A DNA stretch of 52,652 nucleotides, taken from Candidatus Hydrothermus pacificus. Lineage in GTDB: Bacteria; Hydrothermota; Hydrothermia; Hydrothermales; Hydrothermaceae. The position numbers were made by a program, and so were the translations under genes. The notes under the pieces were generated by a model. It made no database searches, was not told the origin of the DNA, and worked only from the letters and a program-made list of their open reading frames with translations. Position 1 is the stretch's first letter. The number at the start of each line of letters is the position of its first letter. Shown here piece after piece: positions 8,333 to 14,305 of the stretch. The stretch spans positions 1 through 52,652 of the forward strand of contig MTOH01000003.1 of NCBI GenBank assembly GCA_002011615.1, read 5' to 3'.

Positions 8333-9262
8333 ATGATTGAAGTAAAAGAGCTTTCAAAATACTTTGGACAGGTAAAGGCGGTTGACAATATTTCATTTAA
8401 TGTTCAAAAGGGAGAAATTCTTGGATTTCTCGGACCAAATGCTGCTGGAAAAACAACTACAATGAGAATTATAACAGGTTTTCTGATACCCACATCAGGA
8501 ACTGCATATATTGAAGGTATCAATGTAATGGAAAAACCCGAGGATGTAAAAAAGAAGATAGGGTATCTCGCCGAGGATAATCCCCTTTATACTGATGTTA
8601 CACCAAAGGAATATCTTCAATTTATAGGTGAAATAAGGGAAATTGATAAAGATGAATTTAAAAATGCCTTTGAAAAGGTAATTTCTGATACAGGTATAGA
8701 AAATGTCCTGAACAGACCCATAGGAGAATTATCAAAGGGATACAGGCAAAGAGTGGGGCTTGCACAGGCACTTCTGCACAATCCTGATATTCTGATACTT
8801 GATGAACCTACAACAGGACTTGACCCCGCACAGATAGTTGAGATAAGAAACCTTATAAAAAAGCTGGGTAAGGAAAAAACCGTTATCCTATCAACCCACA
8901 TATTACCTGAAGTTGAGGCATTGTGTGAAAGAGTCGTGATAATTCATAAAGGTAAAATAGTTGCCGAGGGAAAACCTCATGAACTCGGTGAGAGAACAAA
9001 GGCAAAGGGCAGCGTAAAGTTTCTTGTAAAGGCAAAAAAAGATGAATTTGAAACCAAATTAAAACAAAAAGAGGATATTGATTCTTATTCTCTGAGAGCA
9101 CTGGACGATTTTGTAGAGGGAAAGGTTTTATTTAAGGAAGGTGAAGATGCAAGGGAGAGATTTTTTGATTTCTGTGTTGAAAATAAATGGAAAATTTATG
9201 AACTTTATCCTGAAAAAGCCGGGCTTGAAGAAATTTTCCTGCAACTTGTTACAGAAGAATGA
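8333..9262 (+). CDS. ABC transporter ATPase, GldA-like
   Basis: 309-residue ATPase of an ABC-2 type transporter. Walker A GPNAAGKTT (about 35-43), signature LSKGYRQRVGLAQA (about 130-143), Walker B ILILDEPTTGLDP and the switch His in STHILPE are all intact. A C-terminal extension of about 90 residues follows the NBD, as in GldA/CcmA-type subunits. It is the first gene of a four-gene operon; its stop overlaps the permease start (ATGA). Together with the downstream GldF- and GldG-like genes it should form an inner-membrane complex with an unknown substrate. GldA-GldFG was first described in Bacteroidetes gliding motility but such operons also occur in non-gliders. Confidence 0.9.
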   Translation: MIEVKELSKYFGQVKAVDNISFNVQKGEILGFLGPNAAGKTTTMRIITGFLIPTSGTAYIEGINVMEKPEDVKKKIGYLAEDNPLYTDVTPKEYLQFIGEIREIDKDEFKNAFEKVISDTGIENVLNRPIGELSKGYRQRVGLAQALLHNPDILILDEPTTGLDPAQIVEIRNLIKKLGKEKTVILSTHILPEVEALCERVVIIHKGKIVAEGKPHELGERTKAKGSVKFLVKAKKDEFETKLKQKEDIDSYSLRALDDFVEGKVLFKEGEDARERFFDFCVENKWKIYELYPEKAGLEEIFLQLVTEE

Positions 9263-9969
9263 AAAGAGTTTGGTCAATATATAAAAAGGAGTTAAAAAGT
9301 TATTTTAATTCACCCATAGGTTATATATACATAGTGGTATTTCTGGTTCTCAGCCAGTGGATTTTCCTGAGAAACTTTTTCATATTTCCCCAGACAACCC
9401 TGAGAGACCTTTTTGCTCTTTTTCCGATTTTGCTCGTTCTGTTTATACCCGGTCTAACAATGAGACTGTGGGCAGAGGAGAGAAAGACAAACACGCTTGA
9501 AATTCTTTTTACTCTGCCTGTTAAGGATTATGAGATTCTTCTCGGTAAATTTTTCTCTGCACTCACATTTTTTGCAATTTCAATAATCCTGACACTCCCC
9601 CTACCCATTACCCTTTCATTTATAGGAGACCTGGACTGGGGAGCCACCCTGTCAGGCTACATAGGTGCCCTGTTCCTGGGAGGTGCATACCTTTCACTGG
9701 GTATTTTCCTTTCAAGCTTCACCCAGAACCAGATAGTCGCCTACATACTTTCTGTGACAATCTGCTTTTTCTTCTACATAATAGGTGAAGATGCAATTAT
9801 TGCAAACTTTTCAACTTTCTGGATAAATGTATTCAAATTTTTCTCTCTGAAAACAAGATTTGAAAGCATAACAAGAGGAATACTTGATATAAGAGATATA
9901 ATTTATTACATTTCATTTATGGGATTTTTCCTTTATTTAAACCTCTGGGTGATGGATAGAAGAAGATGA
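9259..9969 (+). CDS. ABC-2 type permease, GldF-like
   Basis: 236 residues with about six membrane helices. The N-terminal KKELKSYFNSPIGYIYIVVFLVLS and the segment LWAEERKTNTLEILFTLPV are hallmarks of the ABC-2 permease subunit paired with GldG-like proteins. It overlaps the ATPase gene by four bases and the GldG-like gene by four bases, so translation is coupled. Acts in the inner membrane as the translocation subunit. The substrate is unknown. Confidence 0.9.
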   Translation: MKRVWSIYKKELKSYFNSPIGYIYIVVFLVLSQWIFLRNFFIFPQTTLRDLFALFPILLVLFIPGLTMRLWAEERKTNTLEILFTLPVKDYEILLGKFFSALTFFAISIILTLPLPITLSFIGDLDWGATLSGYIGALFLGGAYLSLGIFLSSFTQNQIVAYILSVTICFFFYIIGEDAIIANFSTFWINVFKFFSLKTRFESITRGILDIRDIIYYISFMGFFLYLNLWVMDRRR

Positions 9970-11501
9970 AAAGAAAAGATACAGAAATAATCTTATCACT
10001 GGTTTTTATCATGGGAAGCATGATTTTCCTCAACCTTATTCTGAGAAAACTGGTTTTCAGAGTTGACCTCACAGAGGACAGGATATATACTCTCTCCGGT
10101 TCCACAAAGAATGTCCTTTCTAAACTTGATGATATAGTAACCATAAAAGCTTATTTTTCAAAAAAGTTGCCTCCGAATCTGGTTCCTGTAAAAAGACAGG
10201 TGGAGGACATTCTTGAAGAATACAGGATCTATTCAAAAGGAAAATTAAGATTTGAATTTATAGACCCTGCAGAAAACAAAGAAATTGAAACAAAAGTTAC
10301 CAGAATGGGGATTCCAAAGGTTCAGATGAACATATTTGAAAAGGATAAGTTACAGGTCATAGGCGGTTTTTTGGGAATGGGAATTTTCTATAAGGATAAA
10401 AAAGAACTAATCCCTGTAATAGAAACTCCTGAAAACCTTGAATATGAAATAACATCAAGGATTTTAAAACTTACAAAAAGAGAGGAAGTAAAAATAGGGG
10501 TGATGTTCCTGTCAAAGGATAAAAAAGACAATTATACTATTTTCAAAGATGAACTTTCAAAACATTATTCTGTGAGAGAAGTTTCTCCCAACTTCATACC
10601 CGATGATATAAACCTTCTACTGGTTCTGGGCTGGAAAGAACTTGACCCAAAAGCCTTATACAACATTGACCAGCATATAATGAGAGGAAAAAGTTCTATA
10701 TTCCTGATTGACGCCGTAAATGTAAATGATGAATTGAGAGCAAGGGCTTTAAAAGAAAAGGACATGGAATTTTTCAAAGCTTATGGTATTAAAGTAAACA
10801 CCTCGCTGGTTCAGGATGTGTCCCACGAATCAGCACCCTTTGCTCAGGGAGGAATGGCTTTTCTCATACCCTATCCTTACTGGGTAAAGGCTGTAAATAA
10901 ATTCTTAAATAGAGAAAATCCGATTGTAAACAAACTTGAAGATATTGTTTTTCCCTGGCCATCATCCCTTGATACAATTGCGGATGTTTTGAAAAACCAA
11001 AAAGTTGTAATCCTTGTGAAAACAACTCCAAAGGCATGGGAAACAAAGAACTTTTCCAATCTTATGCCAAATCCCTTTTTTAAACCCCCGGAGGAGAGAA
11101 AACAGTTCAACCTTGCGGTATTAATAAGCGGCAGTTTTGAGTCTTATTTTTCTGACAGGGAACTTCCACAGGGAGTTGATACCACAAAATTCATAAAAGC
11201 CTGCGAACAACTAAATCAGGTTGCATTTGTTTCAAACCTGAAATTCATTGACGACAGATTTTTACAGATGTACCCTGAAAACATACTGTTTTTACTGAAC
11301 CTATCTGACGCTCTTGGATTCGGGAGAGAATTAATTGAAATAAGGTCAAGAGGAAAAACAGAAAGACCTTTAAAACAGATTTCAGACTGGCAAAAAGGAT
11401 TGTTTAAATGGGGTAATACCTTTGGGATGGCTCTGATTATAATAATTCTCGGAATCCTGAGATTTACATACAGGCAGAAAAGGAAAATGAGGAGAGAGTA
11501 A
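9966..11501 (+). CDS. GldG-like ABC auxiliary protein
   Basis: 511 residues: an N-terminal membrane helix (about 8-27), then the DLTEDRIYTLSGSTKNVLSKLDD motif that typifies GldG/ABC_transp_aux proteins, a large periplasmic domain, and a C-terminal helix (about 485-503) followed by a basic tail. In this family the periplasmic domain is thought to work with the ABC-2 permease. It is encoded between the permease and the DUF4340 gene in one operon. Confidence 0.88.
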   Translation: MKRKDTEIILSLVFIMGSMIFLNLILRKLVFRVDLTEDRIYTLSGSTKNVLSKLDDIVTIKAYFSKKLPPNLVPVKRQVEDILEEYRIYSKGKLRFEFIDPAENKEIETKVTRMGIPKVQMNIFEKDKLQVIGGFLGMGIFYKDKKELIPVIETPENLEYEITSRILKLTKREEVKIGVMFLSKDKKDNYTIFKDELSKHYSVREVSPNFIPDDINLLLVLGWKELDPKALYNIDQHIMRGKSSIFLIDAVNVNDELRARALKEKDMEFFKAYGIKVNTSLVQDVSHESAPFAQGGMAFLIPYPYWVKAVNKFLNRENPIVNKLEDIVFPWPSSLDTIADVLKNQKVVILVKTTPKAWETKNFSNLMPNPFFKPPEERKQFNLAVLISGSFESYFSDRELPQGVDTTKFIKACEQLNQVAFVSNLKFIDDRFLQMYPENILFLLNLSDALGFGRELIEIRSRGKTERPLKQISDWQKGLFKWGNTFGMALIIIILGILRFTYRQKRKMRRE

Positions 11502-11502
11502 A

Positions 11503-12474
11503 ATGAGATACAATGCAAAATTATGGGGCGGAATTTTTGCAATCTTAGTTGTAATATTCTTTTTTGTGGAATCTCCCTGGTCAAAAAGAGTGCGGACACC
11601 AAAAAGAATCAGTTTTTCTGATTTTAGAATATCAGAGATTGCAAAAATAGACTTAAAATCAAAGGATAAAGAGTTCACACTCACAAAAAGAGGAGACAAA
11701 TGGTTTTTACAAAGGGATACTGTATTCCTGCCCGTTGACTCTGTCAGAATTGAAAGAACTTTAAAGGCTTTTGAAAACATAGAGGGAGAAGTGGTGGGAA
11801 CAAATCCCGATGATTTTGAACTCTATCAGGTAGATGAGGAAAATGGAATCCATGTTACTGCTTATGACAATAAAGGAAACACTCTTGCAGACTTTTTCAT
11901 AGGTAAAATGGGTCCTGACTTCTCGTCAAACTATGTAAGAGAAAATAACAAAAATGAGGTTGTAGTTGTAGAAAAATATCTCAGAGCCAATTTTCCTATG
12001 TACAAAGGAAGCTGGATAAACAAAAAACTAACTAACTTTAAAGGAGAGGATGTTGTTGAATTTCATCATAAGTTCGGTGATGAATTCACAATAATCAAAA
12101 AAGACGGTAAATATTACTACGAGGGAGATACCATAAAACTCGATTCAATAAGAGTAATTCAGTATCTGAGAATGATAGGGAACATAATTGCGATGGACAT
12201 CATTGATACTCTTTCCATTAAAGATGCGGGTCTTGACAAACCACAGGGGATTTTTGAAGTAACTACAAAAGACGGGGGATATCATGCTTTAATTTTCGGA
12301 AATACCCCTGAAGGTGGTATGACATGGTATGTGACAGATAAGAATAAAAAATATGTCTATACTTTAAGTAAAACCTATGTTGAAAATGCTTTGAGAAAAA
12401 CAAAAGATTACTTTATAAAGAAAGAAGAAGAGAAAAAAGCAAAACCAAAGAAAGAAAAATTTAAGAAAAAGTAA
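11503..12474 (+). CDS. DUF4340 periplasmic protein of the Gld-like ABC operon
   Basis: 323 residues with one N-terminal membrane helix (about 5-22) followed by repeated beta-rich modules of the DUF4340 type, for example FTLTKRGDKWFLQRD and a later EFTIIKKDGKYYYEG copy. The C-terminus is a Lys/Glu-rich tail. DUF4340 genes regularly follow GldG-like genes. It starts one base after the previous stop. Likely a periplasmic subunit of the transporter; no enzymatic motif is visible. Confidence 0.85.
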   Translation: MRYNAKLWGGIFAILVVIFFFVESPWSKRVRTPKRISFSDFRISEIAKIDLKSKDKEFTLTKRGDKWFLQRDTVFLPVDSVRIERTLKAFENIEGEVVGTNPDDFELYQVDEENGIHVTAYDNKGNTLADFFIGKMGPDFSSNYVRENNKNEVVVVEKYLRANFPMYKGSWINKKLTNFKGEDVVEFHHKFGDEFTIIKKDGKYYYEGDTIKLDSIRVIQYLRMIGNIIAMDIIDTLSIKDAGLDKPQGIFEVTTKDGGYHALIFGNTPEGGMTWYVTDKNKKYVYTLSKTYVENALRKTKDYFIKKEEEKKAKPKKEKFKKK

Positions 12475-12492: not shown

Positions 12493-14268
12493 TTACTGAT
12501 TTATCTTTAAAAGTTCCTCTATTTTATCTTTTAATCTCTCACCTGTGCCCTTTAAATATCCTATCTGTTTGAAAACAATTCTTCCCTTTTTATCAACTAT
12601 AAAATGTGTGGGGAATGCGTTTACCTTGAATTCCCTTCCCAGTTCTCTGCCGTTAATTGCCAATTTATACAAAAATTTCTGTTTTTTCAGGAAATTCTGA
12701 ACAGGTTCTTTATCCTCATCTGTTATTGCCAGGAATATAACATCTTTACTCTCTTTAAATTTTTCCACAAGCTCATTTAATTCAGGAATTTCTGCCTTAC
12801 ATGGTCCACACCATGTTGCCCAGAAGTTAAGAACAACAATTTTCCCTTTATTTTCCTCGTATTTGAACTTTGAACCGTCAATAAGAGTAAGTTCAAAATC
12901 TGAAACTTTTTTAAGTTTTGACATTATTTCTTTCTTTATTTTATCAATTTTCTCTTCATAATCTTTTCCAAGAATACTTTTAAGTGTATCCTCATATTCT
13001 GTATGTCCGTAGTAATAAACAAGATAAGAATATGCTTTTACTGCCTTTTCTGTTTTCTTGTTTTTCCATGCTGATTTTGCAAATAGTCCAAGAATACCAG
13101 GGTCTATTTCTTCGAATCTTTTACCCTCAACAATTTTTTTAACATAAAAATATGAAGAGTCAAGCTTATTTGTTCTGAGATAAAAACCTGCTAAAACAGA
13201 GTACAAACCATTTTTCATTTCCTTCAATGCCTCAAGAATATTATTAGTTCTCGGAGGAAAACGACTGAAAGCTGAATGTTTTCTGAATTTAATAGGGTCA
13301 TTAACAATTTCTTTCTCCATTTCAATAAGCATTTTTACTTTATCCCATTCCTTTCTATTAAATAAAATCCTTATAAGACTACCAATCTCTGGAAGCCACA
13401 CGAATCCTTCTTTTTTTCTTTCCTTTATGTATTCAATTGCCTTATGGATTTCAGGAACAGGATAAAAAAATTTTAGGTATGCATAATATCTGAAATCTTT
13501 TATAAAATAATCAATTTTTTTCTCTTTCAAATAGGAAGTAACCTTATCAATTCCCTTATCTTTTAAATAAGTTATATATGCGCTTATTTTATAATTATCT
13601 TCGGGTAAATCTTCAAAATATCTAAAAATTTTATTTGCAAGAACTGTATCCTTTAAAACCCATTTTGCAGTTAGATAGGCTGAATGTAGAAAAGATGGAT
13701 TTTCCTTTTCCTCTTCAAGTTTCTCCTCTATTTCCCTTCTTACTTCTTCAGGAGTTTCTGCACCCTCCTGAATTGCAAAATAAAACTTATTATCCATGAA
13801 ATCATAGTGGTCTTCATAATATTCATTTTCTTTTAACCATAAAGAGGAAAATTTTCTCAAATTTTCAAAAGGAGCATCTTTATTAAAATAGAAAAAGCCG
13901 AGCATTGATAGGGCAAAGGGGGCAGGTTTCTCTTATTTTGTATAGTAAACGATATAATAAGTGGAATCTACCCTCAGGTTTCCATTGCTCTCTTCAAAGG
14001 CAAAAAGTACAAGGGATGTATTTGTATCAAGTGGCCTTATTTCAATCTCTTTTTCTCCTTTTACCTCTTCCACATGGGGAATTATCTTATAGGGGTCACC
14101 TCCGGAAAATTCAGCCCACCAGATGTATCCTTTAAAGCTTTGGGAGAGTTTTAATTTAACTTTCTGTCCCTGAAGAGGTTTCTCGGGCTCAAGTTTTACT
14201 TTGAGTTCTATTTTTTTACACGAGATGATAAAAAGTAAGAATAAAATTGACAAAATTTTTGTTTTCAT
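12493..14268 (-). pseudogene. TlpA-like thioredoxin lipoprotein interrupted by one in-frame stop codon
   Basis: Two open frames, 14268-13933 (111 residues) and 13905-12493 (470 residues), lie in the same reading frame, separated by one TAA (13933-13935) and ten bridging codons (including the TAA) with no good start for the second. The first begins with a lipoprotein signal (LFLLFIISC, Cys17) and a beta-sandwich. The second carries helical TPR-like repeats and a C-terminal thioredoxin domain with WATWCGPCKAEIPE and the cis-Pro AFPTHF. Known relatives have this as one polypeptide: lipoprotein, N-terminal Ig-like domain, helical repeats, TlpA. I therefore read one gene of 592 codons with a nonsense change. 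It would be a membrane-anchored thiol-disulfide reductase. Everything after the stop is still open, which implies a recent mutation, readthrough or sequence error. Confidence 0.8.
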
Positions 14269-14275
14269 ATTTGCA

Positions 14276-14305
14276 ATTATAACATAAAATATTTTTTCGG
14301 TTCAA
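14276..14305 (-). promoter_or_regulatory. Leaderless promoter of the TlpA-like lipoprotein gene
   Basis: Minus strand TTGAAC (14305-14300), 18 bases, TATAAT (14281-14276), then seven bases to ATG at 14268. The expected transcription start coincides with the start codon. Confidence 0.75.

Follow-up and report, generated by a model that had tools for sequence, protein, structure and literature searches.

The window analysed here, the whole 52,652-nucleotide stretch, carries on its minus strand a single 592-codon frame, closed by a stop and interrupted once. Read from 14268 down to 12493, it begins with an ATG, continues for 111 residues to a TAA at 13933-13935, resumes in the same frame for 479 codons and ends with a stop at 12495-12493. 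The earliest in-frame ATG 3' of the TAA, at 13905, would give a product of 470 aa; the nine codons between the two read EKPAPFALS. A signal peptide opens the first part, and a cysteine stands in a lipobox-like position (FIISC). The features of the locus are as follows.

13933..14268, minus strand: first part, 111-residue lipoprotein signal peptide and beta domain, ending at the internal TAA (frame reading; strands 24-108 in a model of moderate confidence)
13933..13935, minus strand: internal TAA stop codon (frame reading; a residue stands in this column in 13 of the 14 relatives' rows that reach it)
12493..13932, minus strand: remainder of the frame, 479 codons and the true terminator (frame reading)
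12493..13905, minus strand: 470-residue ORF opened by the earliest ATG past the stop (in the ortholog of genome G004 the Met lies inside the protein, in ALSMLGFF)
12547..12912, minus strand: thioredoxin-like (AhpC-TSA/Redoxin) domain with WCGPC (Pfam; residues 332-453 of the 470-residue part)
14276..14305, minus strand: promoter-like TTGAAC-18-TATAAT, just upstream of the first ATG (promoter scan; total sites not above shuffles)

An earlier note on this DNA had described parts of 111 and 470 residues in one frame, separated by that single TAA, with EKPAPFALS as a linker and the rest of the gene undamaged. Frame reading bears this out: the parts and the stop are as described, the bridging codons read as given, relatives align straight across the stop, and the frame is otherwise without interruption. 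A row of genes at 8333-12474 (ABC ATPase, ABC-2 permease, ABC_transp_aux and DUF4340) resembles a Gld-type ABC operon; it lies on the opposite strand and ends 18 bases from the broken gene.

The last ~120 residues form an AhpC-TSA/Redoxin domain with WCGPC (Pfam E 1.8e-22; AhpC-TSA 80 bits against a cut-off of 26). The 111-residue part gave no Pfam match, and the large N-terminal beta and helical parts gave none above cut-off. ResA/TlpA-like proteins reduce disulfides outside the cytoplasm; the gene resembles the ResA/TlpA/DsbE group in its C-terminal thioredoxin-like domain with WCGPC, exported by a predicted lipoprotein signal, and differs from it in adding the large N-terminal parts and in scoring below the cut-offs. 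The family models used were NCBIfam NF002854, TIGR00385 and NF047696; the C-terminal domain matches the group under every curated cut-off (for ResA, 90.8 against 170), so that no membership of a named subfamily is claimed, and the label 'TlpA-type' used in the earlier note holds loosely, for the group match, and not as a family assignment. An AlphaFold model of the whole frame (three-sequence input) was used for coarse domain layout only, because its mean pLDDT is 68. In it a signal helix is followed by a beta domain, with strands between 24 and 108, and then, from 117, by a long helical stretch, and the thioredoxin-like part comes last, at the C-terminus; the internal stop falls at the beta/helical boundary, the last strand ending at 108 and the first helix starting at 117.

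One perspective takes the two parts at face value, as separate genes, one for a lipoprotein of 111 aa and one for a protein of 470 aa that reinitiation would start at 13905. The stop does lie almost exactly at the modelled beta/helical boundary, and the first part might fold alone. The second part, however, would start without a signal peptide and has neither a recognisable ribosome site nor a promoter-like site. In agreement with the earlier note, the sequence ahead of 13905 contains no evident purine run of Shine-Dalgarno type, and the promoter scan placed no promoter-like site on the minus strand between 14225 and 13905; the scan weighs little, because its total of 10 sites was no higher than in shuffles (mean 7.9).

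The relatives speak against two genes more directly. The best ortholog, in a genome of the same order and another family (G004), is a continuous frame of 601 aa that aligns end to end at 50% identity (E 3.9e-187); at the junction it has sense codons and the same linker, with no stop, and the Met at 13905 corresponds to an internal residue. Outside the order, 18 loci were examined: in 17 the frame runs unbroken over the match for 539-645 codons, and the remaining one (L012) is truncated where its contig ends. The column of the stop is occupied by a residue in 13 of the 14 other rows that reach it (Glu in six) and by a gap in one. The genomes searched included none of the same species, genus or family, the nearest being of the same order. 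A contig scan with the single protein as query gave no match, and with the alignment it matched for the most part thioredoxin domains from other phyla. G000, the genome of the window, has no second copy of the first part that could compensate; the matches listed there for the second part are short thioredoxin frames of 174, 155 and 130 codons. The earlier note had pointed to sister genomes as the place where two genes with a proper second start might be seen. No relative is laid out in that way, and the intact ones are single genes; the two-gene reading was rejected on these grounds and seems to us extremely improbable. To judge from the frames compared, 12493-14268 is one gene, not two.

The state of this gene within its order was surveyed in five genomes (G000 to G004) with the G004 protein as query, and by direct reading. 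The copy in G000 has its single TAA, and that in G004 is intact. G002 has two copies: one (C1:160100-161850) is split into two pieces that lie in different frames, the shift falling where nine A follow one another; the other (C1:424106-425653; L034:1610-3184) is interrupted by numerous stops and shifts of frame and lacks a clear signal peptide. The frame change of the first copy lies in L005 around 2781-2815 (G002:C1 near 161392), and slippage on the poly-A run could in principle bring the frame back. G003 keeps a remnant (C16:14271-15107) that consists only of pieces separated by large gaps. No copy of full length is present in G001, whose matches amount to a thioredoxin frame of 163 codons and a second, short thioredoxin stretch that matches less well. 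Four of the five full or partial copies in the order are thus broken and one genome is without the gene, against 17 of 18 unbroken outside it. As far as these copies tell, members of this order can dispense with the gene and are losing it repeatedly.

How old the stop might be was approached through the frame behind it. With random substitution, simulation placed the next stop after a median of 11 substitutions, and in 95% of cases after no more than 44-47, a divergence of about 3%. Behind the stop, the amino-acid changes seen in G000 alone and in G004 alone numbered 41 and 29 (outgroup G014), 42 and 37, 37 and 32, 38 and 39, and 39 and 37 with five class-level outgroups, and 47 and 66, and 6 and 3, against two G002 pieces; by these relative-rate counts G000 has no clear excess over G004. 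Consensus residues after the stop were kept in G000 and G004 at 67 versus 76 of 119 and at 49 versus 58 of 70 of the mid-conserved columns (agreement among at least 7, or at least 9, of 12 relatives), and at 37 versus 36 of 40 with the strictest cut. The lower retention in G000 and the 41 versus 29 with G014 could reflect some earlier relaxation, or simply differences between lineages. The absence of clear decay behind the stop implies that the stop is either young or not real, and the data fit both alike.

A second perspective therefore supposes that the stop is not real: the assembly has a wrong base here, either from a consensus error or from a strain variant in the minority, and the real gene is whole. 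The frame shows no other damage, and the missing decay is as compatible with an error as with a young mutation. The frequency of such stops was surveyed by tblastn among sampled stretches of three genomes (G000, 789,465 b; G004, 1,250,397 b; G002, 409,411 b), and the flagged matches were sorted by eye. In G000, 254 genes were testable and six were flagged, with one clear single stop, that of this gene, and one clear frameshift. The latter, at L127:5173-5567 (G000:C6), looks true: the halves of a short gene, which we take to be PIN-like (VapC-type), match one G004 protein in two frames. Set aside as interrupted genes in G000 were L041 (two different kinase domains), L045 (two neighbouring genes, fused in G004), L115 (apparently an antisense frame) and L127:4958 (stop ahead of the likely start). 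At L045:14674-15925 two neighbour genes overlap, presumably kinase-like and acyltransferase-like parts, and G004 has one fused frame at L063:5879-7144. In G002, four of 185 tested genes were flagged, this gene among them.

G004 is different: 11 of 298 tested genes were flagged, and eight were judged clear single stops, with no two-frame matches. Seven are TAA (L061:10984, L081:17768, L108:7224, L147:11076, L072:16016, L091:10069 and L141:2645) and one is TGA (L105:17237); dropped were L141:4005 and L068:10269, which lie near the N-terminus, and L080, an antisense frame of repeat-like sequence. From their sequences we take the interrupted genes to include cysS, hutI, and those for a ParA, a nitrilase and a methyltransferase. 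The stop in cysS is found in G004 alone among 56 matched genomes (60 searched). About 49% of new stops from a random single substitution in G004 are expected to be TAA, so that seven TAA in eight is suggestive but weak. The G004 stops are probably base errors or strain mixing, though they are all substitutions and rich in TAA.

Errors or strain mixing of this kind thus seem to occur in such assemblies, and it is because G004 looks like one of them that an error at 13933-13935 is kept as the alternative. It is nevertheless rather unlikely. The rate in the window's own genome is low (one clear single stop per 254 tested genes), and a chance error would need to strike the very gene that three of the four sister genomes carry in broken form or lack.

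A third perspective makes the stop leaky or programmed: some ribosomes would pass the TAA, and the full lipoprotein would be made at a low level. The frame after the stop has no clear decay, and G004 genes also hold internal TAAs. Belinky et al. 2021 (PMC7918605) describe single in-frame stops in otherwise good bacterial genes and report in-frame stops under purifying selection across bacteria; the present gene is like theirs in the single stop in an otherwise good frame. The filter against errors described there was that the stop be common to two or more genomes; theirs are kept at the same place in at least two genomes, whereas the present one is found in one genome only, and no aligned relative shares it. 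The codons around the internal TAAs have no visible common pattern, and the next base varies. A stop without shared position or context, and for which no suppressor tRNA was found, makes programmed readthrough a poor third, and we consider it very unlikely.

The search for such a tRNA was as follows. A UUA anticodon is absent from the 14 tRNAs that ARAGORN reported in the G000 sample and from the 30 in G004 (46 tRNA matches in the whole of G000). A pattern search for TTTA with a standard T loop gave 11 and 43 matches, one each in a tRNA gene and neither of them UUA: one is Lys-UUU by position, the other Leu-UAG by its stem. As the pattern demands a standard T loop, an odd tRNA could be missed by it. 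TAA is moreover the commonest terminator among genes of 200 aa or more in the sampled stretches (252 of 517 in G000, 400 of 782 in G004, 150 of 265 in G002). Recoding of TAA was rejected on terminator usage, the lack of a matching tRNA and the lack of a stop common to relatives. A more elaborate version, in which internal TAAs are tolerated or used by members of this WOR-3 order (cysS and the ParA-like gene of G004, and this gene), some context or factor causing an amino acid to be inserted there while most TAAs end genes, is hardly credible to us.

The likely account is the ordinary one, a recent nonsense change in a single lipoprotein-thioredoxin gene, which makes an early pseudogene. The earlier note had offered a recent nonsense change, programmed readthrough and a sequencing or assembly error side by side; the first ranks best, because three sister genomes carry damaged copies or none, and the error second. 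That the gene is under loss within the order likewise favours a real mutation over a random error, and we infer that the stop arose by mutation. The phenomenon is of a known kind: as in other bacterial pseudogenes with a single nonsense change, there is one in-frame stop, the remaining frame is intact, the gene is continuous in relatives, and sister copies are further decayed.

By this account of a recent nonsense change, the ancestral gene would have encoded a secreted lipoprotein built of a beta domain, a repeat-like helical middle and a thioredoxin domain like that of ResA/TlpA, and the change would have placed a TAA where the beta domain meets the helices. Ribosomes would halt there; the cell product would be at most a 111-residue lipoprotein without a redox domain, and the thioredoxin part would be lost or, with a restart at 13905, untethered in the cytoplasm. 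The part after the stop may still look intact because the event is young. An envelope thiol-disulfide function would be lost, one that the order can apparently manage without.

The significance is small: one gene probably lost through one base, in the ordinary course of gene decay. For annotation, the locus is best marked as one interrupted gene rather than as two proteins. Within the order, the copies would then form a small, clean series that follows how one redox lipoprotein of the envelope is lost in an uncultured group: intact, with one stop, with one frameshift, decayed, reduced to a remnant, and absent.
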